This document shows positions 28,871-38,900 of a stretch of 64,000 bases of DNA, piece after piece. Location of the stretch: contig QWPV01000002.1 of NCBI GenBank assembly GCA_003671055.1, forward strand, positions 1-64,000. The letters are read 5' to 3'. The position numbers were made by a program, and so were the translations under genes. The notes beneath the pieces are model-generated. The model had not been told where the DNA came from. It did not search any database and worked only from the letters and a program-made list of their open reading frames with translations. Source of the DNA: Planctomycetota bacterium. Its GTDB lineage: Bacteria; Planctomycetota; Phycisphaerae; Phycisphaerales; SM1A02. The stretch's first letter is position 1, and each line of letters opens with the position of its first letter.

Positions 28871-31800
28871 CTATTTTAGAGCTTTCGGCAGGAAATCCAC
28901 CTTTCGGACTCCTTCCACGCGCGCCACTTTCGCCAATTGAGCGGGCGTGAGGTGCAGGATCACAAGCTTGCGCTCGACCGTCACGACGATCGCACCTGTA
29001 TCCGAAAGTCTCTTGATCGCGCCCTTAGATGCGTCATCGATAAGCACCACAACCTGCATTCGCCCATCCGCATCAAGCGTGATGCCGAGTCCCTTCAGAA
29101 TTGCGGCGAATGTGGTTGGATCAACTTCCGCAGCGACCGCGACAAGCGCGAGCTCCTTTCCAAGACGACGAGCGAGAAGATCCAAGTCTGCGCGTGTGAG
29201 CTGCACTGCGACTCGTTGATTGTCCTTCGGCGCATCGACACTCAACACAGATGGTGCTGTTGTTGCCGCGTGCGTTTCCAAAGATCCTGGCACTCGCTCT
29301 TTGCTCGGAGTTGCTTCGTTGGCTGATACAGGAGCGAGTGCAGGCGCGGCCGTGGGTCCATCCCCGATCCCGTTGCTGCCTCGAAGTGCACCAGAAGGTG
29401 AACCTGGTTTAGCTGCTGGCATCGGTGCATTCACTGGTGCTGATGACTTGCCCTTCACTTCACCTCGCGGCGCTGATGGACCTACTCCGTATCCCACCAG
29501 GCTTGGTGCTGCTGAATTTGGTGGTGGCGGCGAAGCCAACGCCCGACTGCGTTCGACTTCGGAACGACGATAGCTGACGCTCGCGTCACCACTACCACCG
29601 CCTCCTCCACCACCCATGCCACCAGAGACGCGTTGTTGTACAGGTTGTGCGGACTGTGCGAACTCGCCGCTCCGCATCCTTGGTGCTGCACTTGACGCTG
29701 GCTCGCGATGATCTTCCCGATCAGATCTTAGTTCGCCCACCAAACCAGACGAATCTTGGCTGGCCACGCGCTCGAGTGACTCACGAAGAGCGAATGATTC
29801 ACTTAACGCAGCACTGAGTCCGTCTTCATCCGCAGCAATACCAAAGAATTGCTTCCCAAGATCCACTCCCGTTAGCGCGATGGATTGCACGCCTTCACCG
29901 AAGAATCCAGCCCAATTCGTGCCTTCTGGAAGTTCGATCGGCACTGCAACAAGCATCGAAGCGCCGCCGACTGTGACGCGACTCTTCTCGATCGCAATGA
30001 AACTTGTGTAGCGGGTTGCGATGCTGAAGTCTTCACCGAGTCGCACGACCTCGCGTTGGATCGCAAGATCAAGTGACTCGCTCTCCACCGCAGCCATGTG
30101 CGGCAACAACAAATCATCAACCTTCGCTCGCGCCCACAGTGTCTCGACAACATCATGCGCGGCTTGCGCTGCTGGAAACTCCACCGCCACGCGCTTCTCC
30201 CATGCACCCGCGGCAGTTCGACCGCGCACAATTGCTTCACCCTTCGCGCCGCCACGCTTCGCATCAAAGCGACCGAGGACAACAAGTGGAGACTGGTCGA
30301 AGAGATCAGGCAACACGCCGCCGCCTGGCAAGAGCGCTGTTGCGCCAAGCGTATTGTCGAACGAAATCTCGATATCCGTGAGCACTGGATTCTCAATGCG
30401 CCGCACGAATCGTTCGACAACTGCGTCCGCATCTTCTGCGAGCGTCACGATGTCACTCGCGCCACGACCAGCGCGCGCCATCTCTTCGATGAGATATCGA
30501 TTCACGCTTGAACCGATACCAAAACTGAACACGCGGCTCGCACGCACGTTGTCACGAATCGCAGCAATCACGTCTTGATCGTTGCCGATGTAGGCGTCTG
30601 TGAGGAACATCACGATGCGAGTGCGCGCATCTTCTTGTTGAAACTCCGCGCGATCAATCGCAAAGACGCGTACGGTGTCTTTCGTCAACCAGCGACCATT
30701 GAGCAGAAATGTCTTGTCGGGAGCGGTGGGCATTGCAACCGCGAGTTCAACTGGAATCGTCTGACCGTTCGCTAGCGAAATCGCCTTCGTACTCAGTGCA
30801 TTGCTGCTCACCGCGATCGTCACCACGCGTCCGTCTGCTGGAAGTTCGAGCAACTTCGCGGGATCAAGTGCACTGCGACCAGGCTGGATGAGTGCGGCGT
30901 TGATGGCGGTCATCATTTCGGTGCCGCCACCGCCCTCTTGTCGTTCAACCATCGCTTGCGCTGCTGCGATGTTTTCTGGTGTTGCCGCTTTCGGTTCGGT
31001 CCACAACACACGCGTGTCGCCTGCGAAAGTGATCATGTTGAAGGTGTCAGTCGGACGCATCTTCGCGATCGACTTCGACATGACTTCTTTCGCCTTCTCG
31101 ATCGGGAATCCGTTCATCGAACCAGAGGTATCGAGCACGAAGATCAATTCGCGCGGACGAGCCTCAGCCGACGCGACGCGCGCTGGCGGCTCAAGCATGA
31201 GCATGAAGTAGCCGCCCTTCGTGTCCTGTAGCCGCGGTCCCTTTCCTTCCTGATCGACATGCGCGAAGAACGCGGGCTCAATCGATGTATTCTCGACTTG
31301 CCACGAGAGCACGAAGTCCTTGTTCGGAATGGTGCTCTCGCTCGCAAGTTTCACATCGCGCCGCGTCGCAGAGGTTTCCGCAACATCGACTTTATGCTGC
31401 GTGCTCTTCACGCTCGTGAACTTCGCTCCACCAGAATCGAGTGAGACTTTGATCGACAAATCATGCCCAGATCGCTCCGTTGGATGCACGGGCATCGGCG
31501 TGATACGCGCGGCATCCGGCACTTGATCGGTGTTGGCAGAGAAGCCCGCACCAGGATCACTATCAAGTTTCGCGAAGAACCAGCGACCATTCAATTCGCC
31601 AACTCCACTCTGCCACAGCGATCCGTGCTCCATACTTCCGTTGCCGTACTTCGCATCAAAGCGCCACGGTTCGCCCGCCTGCATCACAACATCGAATCTC
31701 GCCGCATCTGGAGTGCGTACGGGAATTGCCGCCGTGAGAAGATCAAGTAGACGCGGTGCGGGAATGAAGCATCCATCTTTCGTCTCGATCGCAGCGGGTG

Positions 31801-32683
31801 CTCGAAGCACAACGCCTTCACGCACGATGAATCCATCGGGAAGCGAAGGCATCGACACGGGGCGACCGGGGATGTATCGCGGTCCAACAACAGTGGGGAA
31901 ACTCCATGAGTACACGCCATCACGGCGTTGCACGAGTTCAATTGTTGCGATGCGAATGCGCACTGTCGCGCCTGGTTCGATGTTGGCAACGGACTGCGTG
32001 AAGATGTTCGGTCGCTCTTGCTCGAGCAAACTCGCGACATATCCAGACTCGCGCGCAGCTTCATACATCATGCGTGCGGCGTGTCGTTCTTTCACTTCGC
32101 CCTCGATAACAATTTCACCCGACGGTCCGCGCACGATCATCGTCATGCGATCCACCGCAGCACTGTTCGAGAGTGGGAAGGTGTAGAGCGCTTCGATCTT
32201 CCGTGGGTATGGATTCGCGTATACCTGCTCGATGACGGTTCGCATGAACGGACCACTCGCCTCAGCAACAACATCGGTGCGTTGCAATGGGCACGGCCCG
32301 AGCACATTGCCGCTCTCGTCAAGCGCGCTCAGTTCGCCGCCTTCTGGAACTTGCACAAGCCCGCCGTCGGCAAACGCTGATTTTTGGCTTGTTTCGCTGA
32401 AGAAAACGCCAAGTGTCACCATTGCTGCGAGCAGTGCTGCGGCGGCGAGTGTTCGCGCCATCCAACCGCGTGACGCAGGATGCGAGTGCAATCGAAGTGG
32501 CGCATCAAGTGCGCCTGATGCACGAGCTTTCGCGAGTGTCTCATCACGCAATGCCTCGGCGCGATCGCGGTTCTCGTCGTGCCATACGCGCAGTGATGCA
32601 TCGAGTGGATGCGGAGTGAGTTCCTCGTGATCGGTTGCGCCCGAGTGGTCGTTGTTGGTTGGGTTGAATTGCAAAGACTTCAT
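28871..32683 (-). CDS. Membrane-anchored VIT and von Willebrand A domain protein
   Basis: A 1270-residue protein. A cytoplasmic N-terminus of about 74 residues precedes one transmembrane helix (about 75-95). A VIT domain follows at about 110-240 (FMRTVIEQVYANPYPRKIEALYTFPL). The vWA domain has a complete MIDAS motif D-T-S-G-S-M starting at Asp518 and runs to about 730. A low-complexity region rich in Gly, Ser, Ala and Pro (about 960-1150) separates it from a C-terminal alpha/beta domain of about 110 residues. The start codon overlaps the stop of the ECF sigma gene upstream by 4 bases, so translation is coupled. The short cytoplasmic N-terminus could act as an anti-sigma segment (inference). 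Ligand is unknown. Confidence 0.9.
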   Translation of the reverse strand: MKSLQFNPTNNDHSGATDHEELTPHPLDASLRVWHDENRDRAEALRDETLAKARASGALDAPLRLHSHPASRGWMARTLAAAALLAAMVTLGVFFSETSQKSAFADGGLVQVPEGGELSALDESGNVLGPCPLQRTDVVAEASGPFMRTVIEQVYANPYPRKIEALYTFPLSNSAAVDRMTMIVRGPSGEIVIEGEVKERHAARMMYEAARESGYVASLLEQERPNIFTQSVANIEPGATVRIRIATIELVQRRDGVYSWSFPTVVGPRYIPGRPVSMPSLPDGFIVREGVVLRAPAAIETKDGCFIPAPRLLDLLTAAIPVRTPDAARFDVVMQAGEPWRFDAKYGNGSMEHGSLWQSGVGELNGRWFFAKLDSDPGAGFSANTDQVPDAARITPMPVHPTERSGHDLSIKVSLDSGGAKFTSVKSTQHKVDVAETSATRRDVKLASESTIPNKDFVLSWQVENTSIEPAFFAHVDQEGKGPRLQDTKGGYFMLMLEPPARVASAEARPRELIFVLDTSGSMNGFPIEKAKEVMSKSIAKMRPTDTFNMITFAGDTRVLWTEPKAATPENIAAAQAMVERQEGGGGTEMMTAINAALIQPGRSALDPAKLLELPADGRVVTIAVSSNALSTKAISLANGQTIPVELAVAMPTAPDKTFLLNGRWLTKDTVRVFAIDRAEFQQEDARTRIVMFLTDAYIGNDQDVIAAIRDNVRASRVFSFGIGSSVNRYLIEEMARAGRGASDIVTLAEDADAVVERFVRRIENPVLTDIEISFDNTLGATALLPGGGVLPDLFDQSPLVVLGRFDAKRGGAKGEAIVRGRTAAGAWEKRVAVEFPAAQAAHDVVETLWARAKVDDLLLPHMAAVESESLDLAIQREVVRLGEDFSIATRYTSFIAIEKSRVTVGGASMLVAVPIELPEGTNWAGFFGEGVQSIALTGVDLGKQFFGIAADEDGLSAALSESFALRESLERVASQDSSGLVGELRSDREDHREPASSAAPRMRSGEFAQSAQPVQQRVSGGMGGGGGGGSGDASVSYRRSEVERSRALASPPPPNSAAPSLVGYGVGPSAPRGEVKGKSSAPVNAPMPAAKPGSPSGALRGSNGIGDGPTAAPALAPVSANEATPSKERVPGSLETHAATTAPSVLSVDAPKDNQRVAVQLTRADLDLLARRLGKELALVAVAAEVDPTTFAAILKGLGITLDADGRMQVVVLIDDASKGAIKRLSDTGAIVVTVERKLVILHLTPAQLAKVARVEGVRKVDFLPKALK

Positions 32684-33249
32684 CGTTGAGTTCCTTCTGT
32701 TGCGAGGCGAACTGCGAGAAAGTCGCGCGCCTTGGCAACTAATCGATAGAACGTAGGACGCGAAATGCCGAGCGCGCGCTTGGCGGCTTCAACTGGATCG
32801 CGTTCAATATAGAAAAGATGCAACGCCAACCGCTCGTCGTGAGGAAGTGCCTCAATCGCTGCGGTAAGGAGTGCTGAGGATTCGCGCCGTTCAAGAACAG
32901 TGCTTGGAAGTTCGGGTGCGCGTCTGATTTCGTTCTGCATGCCTGTCTCCGGATCTCGTTTCCGACGAAGCCAGGCTGCACGACGTTCGCTACACACGAA
33001 TCGTGCAATCCCGCAAATCCAGGCTCGAAACCCTCGACAGTCAGTCACATCAGCACGCTCGCGAAAAGCACGCAAGAATGTTTCCTGCGCTGCCTCTTCA
33101 GCGTCATCAATCGATCGACTTGGAATCGCACTTCGGCAGATGGAAAAGATCAGCGTTGCGTGGCGGTCATAAATCCGCCGTCCCGCATCGCGGTCGCCTT
33201 CGTTGAGTGCAGCAAGGTCCTGGCAATCGTCAGTCACGTGCGCTTCCAT
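32680..33249 (-). CDS. ECF-type RNA polymerase sigma factor
   Basis: A 189-residue sigma-70 family factor of the extracytoplasmic-function class. Region 2 is visible in GRRIYDRHATLIFSIC and DAEEAAQETFLRAFRERADV, followed by FRAWICGIARFVCSERRAAWLRR. Region 4 is IEALPHDERLALHLFYIERDPVEAAKRALGISRPTFYRLVAKAR. It is translationally coupled to the VIT/vWA membrane protein downstream and diverges from a second ECF sigma gene. This arrangement implies that the membrane protein regulates the factor, or is its target. Confidence 0.92.
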   Translation of the reverse strand: MEAHVTDDCQDLAALNEGDRDAGRRIYDRHATLIFSICRSAIPSRSIDDAEEAAQETFLRAFRERADVTDCRGFRAWICGIARFVCSERRAAWLRRKRDPETGMQNEIRRAPELPSTVLERRESSALLTAAIEALPHDERLALHLFYIERDPVEAAKRALGISRPTFYRLVAKARDFLAVRLATEGTQR

Positions 33250-33342
33250 GAAGTTCGATTGTCCCCTGTCTCAGCGATCCATACAGAAAACTTAAAAAAC
33301 TCTGCTTGGCTATCCTGCTCGATGTCGAGGTCTTCGACAGGC
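33250..33342. promoter_or_regulatory. Shared promoter region of two divergent ECF sigma genes
   Basis: Ninety-three bases separate the two start codons (72 if the plus gene starts at ATG 33322). The middle carries an A-rich tract (33285-33303). ECF sigma genes are often autoregulated, so both factors may act here. I can point to no clear repeated promoter element. Confidence 0.45.
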
Positions 33343-33888
33343 ATGCGCTTCGAAAACGATCAAACCCTCATTCACGCGTGCCTCAAGGGGGATCAGTTCG
33401 CATGGACTGACCTCGTTGAGCGATACCGACGACTTGTGTGGAGTGTGATTCGCCAAACGAAACTTCGGCCGGAAGATGCTGAAGATGTGTTTCAGCAAGT
33501 TTTTCTTTCGCTCTTGCGATCGCTTCAGGATCTTCGAGAGACAGACCGACTCGCCGCGTGGCTTCTCACAACCACGCGACGCGCGTGTTGGCGCGCATCC
33601 TCAAAGTCGAGTGGCGCGCCGGTGTCACTTGAGTCCACCGCTCTTCTTGCAGACGGAACGCAATCCGACGCGACCGAGGTTGAACTCGACAAACAACTGG
33701 TGCGGGATGCCCTTGAACAACTTGGCGGTAAGTGCCGAGAATTGCTCGAAGCACTTTTTTCTGCGGCTGGTGAACCAAGTTATCCAGAGATTGGCGAGCG
33801 ACTTGGCATGCGTGTTGGCTCAATAGGCCCAACCCGACAGCGTTGCCTCGAAAAATTGACGCCTATTCTGCACGGATTGGGCTTCTAG
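33343..33888 (+). CDS. ECF-type RNA polymerase sigma factor
   Basis: A sigma-70 family factor of 181 residues from ATG 33343; ATG 33322 seven codons upstream is equally possible. Region 2 reads DQTLIHACLKGDQFAWTDLVERYRRLVW and DAEDVFQQVFLSLLRSLQDL, with LAAWLLTTTRRACWR after it. Region 4 is ALEQLGGKCRELLEALF followed by PSYPEIGERLGMRVGSIGPTRQRCLEKL. It is distinct from the divergent factor at 32680. It heads a compact plus-strand run ending in a CHAT protease and a subtilisin. Confidence 0.9.
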   Translation: MRFENDQTLIHACLKGDQFAWTDLVERYRRLVWSVIRQTKLRPEDAEDVFQQVFLSLLRSLQDLRETDRLAAWLLTTTRRACWRASSKSSGAPVSLESTALLADGTQSDATEVELDKQLVRDALEQLGGKCRELLEALFSAAGEPSYPEIGERLGMRVGSIGPTRQRCLEKLTPILHGLGF

Positions 33889-33963
33889 CCGCGTTTGAGG
33901 GTAGCGCGCGCCTTCCTCTTGAAGCGGTGTATCTAGATCCCCTCTTGGAGACTCACTTAGTAC

Positions 33964-34521
33964 ATGAGAGACGACCCAACACCACCTCGACAACGAATTG
34001 TCACAACTGAGGATGCAACTGCGCTGTTGTCGATTCTGCGCGCCGATGCGCTGAATGAACCGCCAGTGAGCGCGCTTGAACATGCGCTACGGCTCGGGCG
34101 AACGCTCACACAGACGCCGCTGCAATCTGGTTCCGGATCTCAAGCGCTCACCGATCTTGCTGCCGCACTTGGTGCAATAATCGCACGGCTCGTTCAACCA
34201 AATCCTGATCTCGCACTCGCAGGGCTACGCGACGATTCAGTGGCGAGCGAACTTCTCTTCGCCACGGATGGGCTCCAAATTTCCATGGAAATCGCACCCG
34301 CGCGCAACGGAAACGCGCGCCTCATCGGCGAAGTGCTCAACCTCACGGGAGGCGTGGTCGCGGACGCGCGCATTCGAGTGTTTAGCGACTTCTCCCAAAC
34401 CGCGCATGCGACAACTACGGATGAGACAGGAACTTTCTCACTTACGCTTCCAACGGGTCACTGGCAACTTGTGATCTGTGGCGGTGACGCGATCGCGCTT
34501 CTCCCGCTCACGATTGAGTAG
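33964..34521 (+). CDS. Carboxypeptidase-regulatory-like domain protein, hypothetical
   Basis: A soluble 185-residue protein from ATG 33964, 75 bases after the sigma gene. The N-terminal 100 residues are helical and Ala/Leu-rich. The last 70 (ARLIGEVLNLTGGVVADARIRVF ... TTTDETGTFSLTLPTGHWQLVICGG) look like an Ig-like carboxypeptidase-regulatory domain. No signal peptide is seen. It stands 6 bases before the CHAT gene. Its position between a sigma factor and a protease suggests an adaptor or anti-sigma-like regulator (inference). Confidence 0.7.
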   Translation: MRDDPTPPRQRIVTTEDATALLSILRADALNEPPVSALEHALRLGRTLTQTPLQSGSGSQALTDLAAALGAIIARLVQPNPDLALAGLRDDSVASELLFATDGLQISMEIAPARNGNARLIGEVLNLTGGVVADARIRVFSDFSQTAHATTTDETGTFSLTLPTGHWQLVICGGDAIALLPLTIE

Positions 34522-34527
34522 ACCAAT

Positions 34528-37401
34528 TTGTCCACCTCACCGATCATCACTCTCGATGCTTGGATCACGGCGCAGCCAGAAGCGCGCCGCGAAATGCTCG
34601 CACAGTGCGCTGATCCCGAGCGTGTCATGCTTTCGCTCGGTGATGAAGTTGAAGCGCTCGCGGCGCGAGATCCAGCATCTGCTGTTTCGGTAGGAAACGC
34701 TCTCATCGAAGTCGCGCAATCGCTTAGCGTGCCACGCGCAGAAATTCGTGCGTCCCGTGCAACCGCGATGGCGCTCGCAGCAGCGGGATGCGCCGAAGAA
34801 TCAATCGCGCTCGCTGATTCTGCTGCGCTGCTCGCGGACCAACACGGACTCGCGCTCGATGCGGCGCGCGCGCGCGTGGCTTCACTTGCACCACGCACGA
34901 TGCTTGGTCGCACAGACGAAGCGCTTCGCATCGGGACTACCGCACGCGACGCGCTCTCCGCACTCGGAGAATTGATCCCAGCTGCGCGCGCTGACTTCAA
35001 TCTCGCCAACATCCACAAAGCGCGCGGCGAAAATGTTGAGGCTGTTGCTCGACTGCAACTCGCTGAACCTGCACTCCGGAATGATCTCATTCCAGCCGGC
35101 TTCATCCAAAATGCACTCGGTGAAAACCTGGTGTACCTCGACCGATTCGATGAAGCAGAAGCGTGCTTCCGCAAGGCTGATGCGATTTTGAGCACCACGC
35201 CAGCGACGATGGCGCTTGCGGTTGTCCGTGGCAACACCGGAGACCTCTTCGCGCGTGAAGGGCGCATGCAAGATGCGCTCAGTGCATACTCCGCTGCACG
35301 CGCGCTACTTCCTCCTTCAGCGGTCGCGCATCGAGTCCGACTGCAGATTGAAGAGGCTGAACTTCTGGCGCTGCTCGGTGCAACACAAGACGCAACGCAG
35401 ACACTTCGCGAGACGCTCGAAGAAGCGAACACCCTTGGGCTTTCTGCAGAGCGCATTCGCGCGTCCGTCGCGCAGGCTCGATTATTTCTCTCGATGACAC
35501 GGATGGAGGACGCGGAGCGGCTACTTCGCTTTGCGATTCTCGAAGTGGAACGCAGCGGCGATTCCCGATCTTTACGCGAAGCAATGATCGTGCTCGCGGC
35601 ACTGCTGCTCTCGCGCGGCGAGTGCGCGAAGGCGCTTGAACTCGCCACGAAGATTGTGTGTGATGAGCACGCTGCGCCAAGTGAACGCGCGCGCGCGATG
35701 ATCATCGAGGCTGATGCGCTTCGCCGACTGCAACGAACGCCAGAAGCATTGCGCGCCGCGCAAAACGCACAAGCAATCGCGAGAGGCAGTTCGAATGCCG
35801 TCCTTGAAGCTGACGCACTTCTCGCAGAGGCAAACATCGTGCGAGAGAGTTCTGGCGCATCAGAGTCCATCCCTTTGCTCGAGCGAGCGGTGGTTGCTGT
35901 TGAGCGAATTCGAGGCACGCTTGCGAGTGACCGATTCCGAGCGGATTGGCTTGGAAGTCGACTTCGTCCCTATGAGGACCTTGCGCTCGACCTTCTAAGT
36001 GCAGGAACTCCCGCTGCGATTGCGCGCGCTTTTGATGTCGTCGAGCAAGCAAAGTCGCGCGCGCTTCTCGATGCGATGATGAAGGCGGTCGATCGCACTC
36101 AAACAACAACTTCGACCGCAGACGAAACAGCGCTGGCCACCGTGCGTGCGCAACTGAACGCGTTGTATGCATCTGACTTCCAGAGCAAAGAACCTGGTGC
36201 ACGCCGCGGGAGCGCTGCGCTTCCTGATCTCATTCGAGTCGCCGAACAACGCTACGCGGAACTCGCGGATGACACGGGCCGAGGACTGCAAGTGATGCTC
36301 GCGAAGCCGTCAACGGGAGCCGCCATTCAAGCGCACATTCCCGAACACGTCGTGCTCATCGAATACTTCTCCATTGGTGAAGAGTTGCTTGTTTTCGTCA
36401 TCACGAAGAACACCGTCCACGTCACGCGAGCAATCGACTCGATGAGCGCGCTCGATGAACTCGTGTCGCGCGCGAACTTCCATCTTCGTCGCGGCGCTCG
36501 ACAAGGCGACGCGCAGGCGACCACTCGCCATACGTCAGCGGCGCTCTCGTTGATGAAATCACTAGGTGAGAGTTTGATCGCGCCGCTCCTTCCACACATT
36601 TGTGGTGCGAACCGACTTGTGATCGTTCCGCATGGCGCACTGCACGCCCTGCCATTCGCGGCGTTGCTTGTAGAGGGCAAGCACCTCATCGAGCAGTTTG
36701 AGATCATGACTGCGCCGAGTGCTTCGGTCGCATTCTCTGTTACAGCGCCATCACACAGCAACGCTGCCACACTCGCACCACTCGTGATTCATGTTGCTGA
36801 TGCGCGTGCGCCTGAAATTACCCGCGAAGGCGAGCGTGTCGCAGAATCCATTCGCTCGCTTGCTGGAAGATGTGACGTGTTGCGCGGGGACGACGCGACA
36901 GCTGATGCCTTCACCGCAAATTGCGCTTATCGGCCGCTTCTTCATATCGCTTGCCATGGACGTTTCGTCGAAGCCTTACCTGCTGCAAGTGGGCTTCGAC
37001 TCGCTGATCGGTGGTTCCCGATTCGAGACATCCTTGCGTTAGAACTCTGCGCAGACCTCGTGGTGCTTTCTGCGTGCGAAACAGGCAGACACGCCGTGCA
37101 GGCTGGTGATGAACTCAATGGTCTCGCACGCGCGTTCATCGCAGCGGGCGCCAAGCGCCTTCTTGTCTGTCTTTGGGCGGTTTCAGACACGGAGACCGCC
37201 GAACTCCAAACCGAGTTCCATCGTCTGAGAACTAATGCAATTCATTTGCATGGATCACTTCTTGATGCAGATTGTTCTGCGCTTCGAACTTCTCTCTTGA
37301 ACGCGCGCGACCGCGGTGTTCAACTTCCATTGTGGGCGCCCTTCAGTTTGCTGGGACAAGCAACCGAAGCACGCGTTCGCTCGAATAGAGCCCTGCATTG
37401 A
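34528..37401 (+). CDS. TPR-CHAT caspase-like protease
   Basis: A soluble protein of 957 residues. About 500 residues of tetratricopeptide-like helical repeats (for example ARADFNLANIHKARGENVEAVARL and VRGNTGDLFAREGRMQDALSAYSAARAL) precede a C-terminal CHAT domain. The catalytic dyad is His810 in LHIACHG and Cys850 in VLSACETG, with the usual 40-residue spacing, so it is probably an active cysteine protease. The start is TTG 34528. CHAT proteases with TPR sensors act in bacterial regulated proteolysis and cell death, for example the Craspase of type III-E CRISPR. No CRISPR element is here. The gene overlaps or abuts the subtilisin gene downstream. Confidence 0.9.
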   Translation: MSTSPIITLDAWITAQPEARREMLAQCADPERVMLSLGDEVEALAARDPASAVSVGNALIEVAQSLSVPRAEIRASRATAMALAAAGCAEESIALADSAALLADQHGLALDAARARVASLAPRTMLGRTDEALRIGTTARDALSALGELIPAARADFNLANIHKARGENVEAVARLQLAEPALRNDLIPAGFIQNALGENLVYLDRFDEAEACFRKADAILSTTPATMALAVVRGNTGDLFAREGRMQDALSAYSAARALLPPSAVAHRVRLQIEEAELLALLGATQDATQTLRETLEEANTLGLSAERIRASVAQARLFLSMTRMEDAERLLRFAILEVERSGDSRSLREAMIVLAALLLSRGECAKALELATKIVCDEHAAPSERARAMIIEADALRRLQRTPEALRAAQNAQAIARGSSNAVLEADALLAEANIVRESSGASESIPLLERAVVAVERIRGTLASDRFRADWLGSRLRPYEDLALDLLSAGTPAAIARAFDVVEQAKSRALLDAMMKAVDRTQTTTSTADETALATVRAQLNALYASDFQSKEPGARRGSAALPDLIRVAEQRYAELADDTGRGLQVMLAKPSTGAAIQAHIPEHVVLIEYFSIGEELLVFVITKNTVHVTRAIDSMSALDELVSRANFHLRRGARQGDAQATTRHTSAALSLMKSLGESLIAPLLPHICGANRLVIVPHGALHALPFAALLVEGKHLIEQFEIMTAPSASVAFSVTAPSHSNAATLAPLVIHVADARAPEITREGERVAESIRSLAGRCDVLRGDDATADAFTANCAYRPLLHIACHGRFVEALPAASGLRLADRWFPIRDILALELCADLVVLSACETGRHAVQAGDELNGLARAFIAAGAKRLLVCLWAVSDTETAELQTEFHRLRTNAIHLHGSLLDADCSALRTSLLNARDRGVQLPLWAPFSLLGQATEARVRSNRALH

Positions 37402-37409
37402 ATACCTTG

Positions 37410-38900
37410 ATGTTGAACACCACGCACCGCTCTCTTCGCTCGCTCCTTGCTGCAGGATTCGTTTTTGGCGCATGCGTCATGACAACTTTCGCGGAGCAAG
37501 GGGATCCTCTCGTTCCGAATCGCATGGTCATCGAGACTCAGAACGCAAAGCAGCGCAGCAGGTTTATCGCGAGTTTCTCGGAACAGTTTGGCGCAATCAC
37601 AAGTGTCGACAGTATTCCAGCCACAGGCTTTGAACTCTTCGCGTACACGCTTCCTGTGGGATCGAATGCTGAAATGGTCCACGCTGCACTCGACGCGATG
37701 ATGCTCGAGGGCACGATTGTGGTTGGCGAGTTGGATTACGAAGGCTCGAGCGGAGAAGGGCGAACAGGTTCGTTGTGGCTCTCGAGTTTGCCCGTCAACG
37801 ATCTCGCACTCGAAGAACAGTATTCGCGATCACTCCTCGGACTAGACGCAGCGTGGACGCGTTCGATGGGCGCGGGTGTTGTGGTCGCGGTCATTGATGG
37901 TGGCATTACGCCAGATCATCCATGGCTCGGCGGTCGTGTCGCGCAATGGGGCGTGAGCTTTGTTCCAGGCGAGTCTCTCGCAGATGTTGGAAATGGCATC
38001 GACGATGATGGTGATGGGCTCACCGATGAACAAGTTGGACACGGAACTTTCGTCGCTGGTCTCATTCACTGGGTCGCACCCGAAGCCCTCATCCTTCCGA
38101 TTCGTGTGTTGAATAGCGATGGCATCACGACAAACTTCCGCACCGCAAAGGCGATTCACTTCGCGTCGACGCATCATGCGGACATCATTAATCTGAGTCT
38201 CGGCAGTGATTACGACTCAACGGTCGTTAAGCGCATGGTTCGGTTCGCGGTGCAGAACGGTGCCGTTGTGCTTGCTGCTGCGGGAAACCGCGCCGCAGAA
38301 GACCCACGAGAGTACCCTGCATCCGATCAATTCTGCATCGGTGTGACCGCGCTCGATTGGTTCGATGTAAAGGCACCATTCGCAAGCTTCGGAAAGAAAA
38401 TCGATCTTGCTGCTCCTGGTCGAACGCTCTTGAAGGGTGGATCGCCTGTTACCTCACGCGCAATCATCGGACCCGTTCCCAACGGAATTGCTGTGTGGGA
38501 AGGAACGAGTTTCGCGAGTGCGTTTGCGGCAGGAACCGCTGCGCTTGTTCGCGCGCAACATCCAAGTTGGCCCAACGAAGTCGTCACAGCGGATCTCATT
38601 GCTGCTGAAATCCAAGCAGTGCTCGGCAACACTGGACCGAATCCGAACACGACGAATCCTGAATATCCAGACATGCTCGGCACCGCGCGTATCGACGCTT
38701 CGCTCGCCACTTTGCTCGCACCAAACGCGCCGCGACTTGCTGATCTCAATGCGGATGGTGTCGTCGGTGCAATCGATCTCACAATCATGCTCGACTCGTG
38801 GGCGCTCGGAGGATTTGGATTGCGATGCGATCTCAATGGCGACGCTTTCGTCGGCGCGCAAGATCTTTCGATACTGCTCAGTGCGTGGAACGAGGGATGA
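37410..38900 (+). CDS. Exported subtilisin-like S8 peptidase with dockerin tail
   Basis: A secreted serine protease of 496 residues. The signal sequence ends near T-T-F-A-E. I use ATG 37410; a TTG at 37398 would overlap the CHAT stop. An N-terminal prodomain-like segment spans about 30-125. The catalytic triad is Asp163 (VAVIDGG), His211 (GHGTFVAG) and Ser367 (GTSFASA), all present. The C-terminal 55 residues are a dockerin-like pair (DLNADGVVGAID ... CDLNGDAFVGAQD) ending within four residues of S-A-W. It is last in the ECF sigma-CHAT run. Its 3' end overlaps the convergent deaminase gene by 23 bases. Confidence 0.9.
   Translation: MLNTTHRSLRSLLAAGFVFGACVMTTFAEQGDPLVPNRMVIETQNAKQRSRFIASFSEQFGAITSVDSIPATGFELFAYTLPVGSNAEMVHAALDAMMLEGTIVVGELDYEGSSGEGRTGSLWLSSLPVNDLALEEQYSRSLLGLDAAWTRSMGAGVVVAVIDGGITPDHPWLGGRVAQWGVSFVPGESLADVGNGIDDDGDGLTDEQVGHGTFVAGLIHWVAPEALILPIRVLNSDGITTNFRTAKAIHFASTHHADIINLSLGSDYDSTVVKRMVRFAVQNGAVVLAAAGNRAAEDPREYPASDQFCIGVTALDWFDVKAPFASFGKKIDLAAPGRTLLKGGSPVTSRAIIGPVPNGIAVWEGTSFASAFAAGTAALVRAQHPSWPNEVVTADLIAAEIQAVLGNTGPNPNTTNPEYPDMLGTARIDASLATLLAPNAPRLADLNADGVVGAIDLTIMLDSWALGGFGLRCDLNGDAFVGAQDLSILLSAWNEG

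Follow-up and report, generated by a model that had tools for sequence, protein, structure and literature searches.

A CRISPR-free TPR-CHAT protease operon of Planctomycetota encoding an extracytoplasmic function sigma factor and a candidate soluble anti-sigma factor

Described protease-sigma systems and the locus under study

CHAT proteases are common in bacteria and, to our knowledge, few of them have a known substrate outside CRISPR. In type III-E CRISPR (Craspase), the protease Csx29 cuts Csx30, thus relieving CASP-sigma (PMC10028731), and CalpL/CalpT/CalpS of type III CRISPR are a Lon-SAVED protease, an anti-sigma factor and an extracytoplasmic function (ECF) sigma factor, respectively (PMC11417357). 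The group ECF54 (Huang 2015, Casas-Pastor 2021, reviewed in PMC8999054) has carboxypeptidase-type, subtilase and CHAT genes beside the sigma gene; the review assigns no anti-sigma factor to it and gives proteolytic control of the sigma factor by CHAT and/or subtilase as a proposal. Here we describe a four-gene operon of a Planctomycetota bacterium (assembly GCA_003671055.1, contig QWPV01000002.1), coding for an ECF sigma factor (SIGp), a soluble protein (R185, a member of what we call the R family), a TPR-CHAT caspase-like protease and an exported S8 subtilase. The window analysed is the stretch 1–64000 of the contig, in a 2.85-Mb genome that is 96% complete.

We tentatively read this operon as a CRISPR-free analogue of Csx29/Csx30/CASP-sigma: an ECF sigma switch under protease control, where R would be the soluble anti-sigma and CHAT would remove it. 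The gene context of the operon is already on record, as ECF54; what is new is an anti-sigma domain without zinc ligands, recognised from sequence in many members of the R family. No earlier report of this domain in the R family, or of a Craspase-like reading, was found in the literature searched.

As in Craspase, a TPR-CHAT protease, an ECF sigma factor and a soluble (here probable) sigma inhibitor are encoded together, and the CHAT domains are detectably related, Csx29 being the CHAT protease found when the CHAT family profile was compared with solved structures (E 2e-9). Unlike Craspase, the operon includes an S8 gene, the 96% complete genome has no Cas7-11 or other RAMP protein (PF03787), and the Csx29 model scores 43 bits against a cut-off of 300. 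Since the RAMP protein is absent and the Csx29 score lies far under its cut-off, the possibility that the operon is itself a CRISPR system was rejected. No Csx30 was present among the PDB matches of the R profile, where sequence dissimilarity may hide a Csx30-like inhibitor. The three-part logic of protease, anti-sigma and sigma is shared with CalpL/CalpT/CalpS as well, whereas CalpL is a Lon protease gated by cyclic tetra-adenylate and that system has neither CHAT nor S8. The SIGp locus shares with ECF54 a sigma factor of sigma2 and sigma4 domains only and the carboxypeptidase-type, subtilase and CHAT gene context, a likeness drawn from domains and neighbouring genes; it differs in that the group was described without an anti-sigma factor, whereas here the carboxypeptidase-like family shows an anti-sigma domain in many members.

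Gene order, conservation and loss of the operon

One profile per gene was used, and loci of the same taxonomic order were judged only where enough flanking sequence was available (42 intact loci). SIGp, R, CHAT and S8 were found in unchanged order and strand at 40 of these loci, with sigma and R present ahead of CHAT in 42/42 and an R homologue lying between sigma and CHAT at every one. TPR-CHAT homologues occur in 48 of the 181 genomes of the family, belonging to 25 of its 45 genera. Two sister species of the genus lack the four genes, a single block of 5.6 kb: window position 33273 is joined to 38887 via about 64 bases in one (G001), and 33274 to 38829 via about 243 bases in the other (G002), and in both the genes to either side are kept. 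In another genus (L042) the operon is flanked by the same neighbours, so its absence is more simply explained by loss of the whole unit. The co-occurrence check suggested together with the original prediction therefore found the four genes kept in order and lost together, and they almost certainly form one functional unit. Set against loci L128 and L129 of these two congeneric genomes, from which the block is cleanly absent, window 33274–38886 provides a natural presence/absence pair.

All six genes of the original prediction were found in the window with the domains claimed, according to the list of open reading frames and to Pfam and NCBIfam models. The first gene of the operon (33343..33888, plus strand; TIGR02937 78 bits) codes for SIGp, an ECF sigma factor of 181 residues having sigma2 and sigma4 domains only, with no C-terminal extension, whose closest solved relatives are AlgU and RpoE. 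Its start was placed at ATG 33343 by alignment with 27 relatives; the list of open reading frames has 33160. The R185 gene (33964..34521, plus strand) follows after 75 bases and the TPR-CHAT gene (34528..37401, plus strand) after another 6, both gaps being as predicted; the CHAT and S8 genes had been described as abutting, and in fact overlap by 4 bases (TTGA). Promoter and terminator scans gave results at chance level.

The TPR-CHAT protein (957 residues; CHAT 148 bits, TPR_12) is the only CHAT protein encoded in the genome. Its His-Cys dyad, His810/Cys850, had been numbered exactly and does not vary among the 19 proteins aligned; no signal was seen in this protein. When used to scan a collection of genome contigs it retrieved only two partial TPR matches, and scans of viral contigs gave no matches. 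Several genomes (G023, G025, G028, G047, G060 and G531) each have a pair of TPR-CHAT genes from this family, and would be useful for addressing sigma/R specificity.

The S8 subtilase (37398..38900, plus strand; 500 residues; Peptidase_S8 127 bits) was likewise correctly described as exported and catalytically intact, with the triad D167/H215/S371. Of the family members, 66 of 68 keep an intact triad and 59 of 67 have a hydrophobic, signal-like N-terminus. The C-terminus, on which the original prediction is silent, is dockerin-like at sub-threshold scores (Dockerin_1, 19.9 bits versus 22.9; GC-type dockerin, 20.1 versus 29). At two loci (L077, L085), two to three tandem S8 genes immediately follow the TPR-CHAT gene.

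The R family and its anti-sigma domain

The R gene is second after the sigma gene, and members of the family have no transmembrane helix. When the R family profile was compared with all PDB sequences, MucA (E 0.011), RseA (0.036) and RslA (0.26) were matched, all over the N-terminal part. NCBIfam anti-sigma models were matched by up to 12 of 25 R members, with a best E of 2e-7 and all under the curated cut-offs, and zf-HC2 was matched by 8 of 25. HHalign of the R family against zf-HC2 anti-sigmas of related genomes gave 95.3% over 83 columns, and six unrelated helical alignments used as controls all gave 1.1% or less. Many R family members were thus shown, at the level of sequence comparison, to carry a predicted N-terminal class I anti-sigma domain from which the zinc ligands have been lost. 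In class I anti-sigmas, helices 1–3 bind sigma4 and helix 4 binds sigma2 (PMC7406223). Like RseA, MucA, RslA, ChrR and the zf-HC2 proteins, R has an N-terminal helical domain and is co-encoded with an ECF sigma factor; it differs from them in lacking zinc ligands and a transmembrane helix and in being fused to a carboxypeptidase-regulatory-like beta-sandwich, the window copy being in addition shortened. Full-length members have an additional N-terminal stretch of the type 'LIAYAAGELPAEEAAQVQAYLAANPSAAEPV'. We consider it probable that the R family acts as anti-sigma.

R185, the window copy, is clearly homologous to this family: a profile made from other members matches it with E 4e-23. Its C-terminal half is CarboxypepD_reg (34.5 bits versus a cut-off of 32.3). 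The protein, called "regulatory-like" in the original prediction, makes more sense as a candidate for a soluble anti-sigma. A single-sequence model (predicted local distance difference test, pLDDT, 69) places helices first, corresponding to a reduced anti-sigma-type set (alpha3–alpha4), and then a seven-stranded C-terminal beta-sandwich at about 70–84. In fold searches this model resembled numerous unrelated beta-sandwiches of Ig-like, macroglobulin-like and glycosidase types, and only a common fold is therefore claimed. Because R185 does not have helices 1 and 2, the anti-sigma assignment, good for the family, is weaker for this copy, for which we lean only slightly towards an anti-sigma function.

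In the proposed mechanism, soluble R, by means of its anti-sigma helices and beta-sandwich, would hold the ECF sigma factor in the resting state. A signal perhaps sensed via the TPR repeats would activate the CHAT cysteine protease through His810/Cys850, and active CHAT would then cut R or remove it otherwise. A conserved AG-x-R segment that separates the helices of R from its beta-sandwich is a first, speculative candidate for the place of the cut. The freed sigma factor would transcribe its regulon, likely including the operon itself, with the exported S8 protease as a putative extracellular arm. An anti-sigma domain in a family encoded between sigma and CHAT makes R185 a concrete candidate CHAT substrate; that CHAT acts on R is suggested with the same reserve as the switch itself.

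Several observations weigh against such a switch. The alignment of R185 to the family profile begins only at position 39, so that helices alpha1–alpha2, which would bind sigma4, are missing; they are also missing in its congener, and in-frame stops exclude an upstream start for R185. Taken alone, R185 matched no anti-sigma model of Pfam or NCBIfam. A single-sequence AlphaFold pseudo-complex obtained as a read-through of SIGp and R185 had a pLDDT of 42 and was uninformative on binding. Among 52 sigma-R pairs no covariation was found where alpha4 would be expected to contact sigma2; the few values above row permutation lie elsewhere and are confounded by relatedness. No bipartite ECF promoter motif was enriched upstream of 47 sigma genes, and the sequence TACACT, found at about −17 upstream of sigma genes, is for the most part common to members of a single genus. 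Loci from other classes of the phylum are rearranged: only 2 of 14 intact ones keep all four genes in order, and some have S8 ahead of sigma. Several loci of these classes have CHAT and S8 followed by an R-like match with no recognised sigma nearby, and for this reason R may serve CHAT or S8 and not sigma. Outside the phylum, the nearest sigma factor found is that of the actinobacterium Nonomuraea (L178), where S8 precedes sigma, an R relative lies directly after it and the TPR-CHAT gene is divergent; this R relative is short, matched no Pfam family and has no recognisable anti-sigma domain.

At five loci of other classes (L076, L080, L081, L084, L087) the R-like beta-sandwich found downstream of CHAT and S8, where no sigma was recognised, is sometimes split over two open reading frames. 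As for the other plasmid sigma matches, those of Streptomyces NBC_01296 and Hymenobacter are without the gene set, and in Miltoncostaea sigma is followed by S8 only.

Alternative readings and the neighbouring SIGm-VIT module

The alternative that survives best is control of the type proposed for ECF54, in which no anti-sigma takes part and CHAT and/or the subtilase proteolyse the sigma factor itself, with R in an accessory role as scaffold or substrate. Such control was stated for ECF54 from the same gene context in PMC8999054, and the Nonomuraea arrangement fits ECF54; the unrecognisable anti-sigma domain of the actinobacterial R relative and the reduced state of R185 speak for it too. However, many R family members do have the domain, and with a signal-like N-terminus in most S8 members the subtilase should not meet the sigma factor in the cytoplasm, which makes it an improbable regulator. 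We therefore regard direct proteolysis of sigma as unlikely, if the more serious of the competing explanations. An anti-sigma domain in the R family would offer ECF54 the anti-sigma it was believed to lack.

A protease cascade or cell-death effector comes somewhat behind. Clan CD proteases are known to act in cell death in other systems, and CHAT could be the effector or activator of R, pro-S8 or cell components, with sigma only turning the operon on and R as a CHAT cofactor or substrate; sets of CHAT, S8 and R without a nearby sigma, as seen in other classes, would suit it. Against this, sigma and R precede CHAT at every intact locus of the order, CHAT and the exported S8 would be in different compartments, and the neighbours of the operon are ordinary, housekeeping-type genes. 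PADLOC, run on the genes of the operon and of the adjacent module, returned only a generic subtilase match, and none of its models matched CHAT, R or sigma. The role in defence or cell death that had been suggested for the locus thus finds no direct support, and we judge a cascade of this kind improbable.

A wider reading is conceivable: CRISPR-free TPR-CHAT/anti-sigma switches, widespread in the phylum and present also in Actinomycetota, might be the ancestral module type from which the type III-E Csx29/Csx30/CASP-sigma cassette was recruited. We think this rather unlikely as things stand. Recognition of the anti-sigma domain in the R family does make the question of where Craspase acquired its output cassette testable by ordinary biochemistry.

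Upstream of the operon, and divergent from it, lies a second ECF sigma gene, SIGm (32680..33249, minus strand; Sigma70_r2 35 bits, TIGR02937 63.7 bits), which, as predicted, overlaps the gene (by 4 bases) of a VIT/vWA single-pass membrane protein of 1270 residues (28871..32683, minus strand; Pfam VIT 97.6 bits, VWA). Sigma70_r2 was detected by Pfam in both SIGm and SIGp. With the SIGp start at 33343, the divergent intergenic region (33250..33342) measures 93 bases, close to the 90 or so expected, and no consensus promoter was recognised in it. Of 29 other VIT loci, 28 have SIGm next to VIT, among them those of the two sister species devoid of the CHAT operon; the one exception stops at a contig edge. 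The pair stands alone in most genomes, most CHAT operon loci have no adjacent SIGm-VIT, and back-to-back placement of the two was seen only in genus g45 and the genus to which the window belongs. Because genomes devoid of the CHAT operon still have a complete SIGm-VIT pair, and the two are neighbours in two genera only, they are separable modules, and joint control from the shared 93 bases is not supported. A single circuit sharing the 93-base promoter region, with VIT sensing for both sigma factors, has in its favour the divergent layout kept in those two genera, and is very unlikely given how regularly each module occurs without the other.

The original prediction had also proposed the VIT protein as anti-sigma and sensor. 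Its adjacency to sigma and its transmembrane helix were borne out, and it is a plausible membrane partner of SIGm; a class I anti-sigma domain at its N-terminus was rejected (HHalign 5.8% over 6 columns), this region consisting only of a conserved cytoplasmic helix and one transmembrane helix. In VIT/vWA proteins encoded beside an ECF sigma factor (window 28871–32683 and L098–L127), a cytoplasmic motif of the LDxxLRxWHxxN type precedes the single transmembrane helix across much of the family; these proteins are possibly a membrane sigma-partner type that has not been described before.

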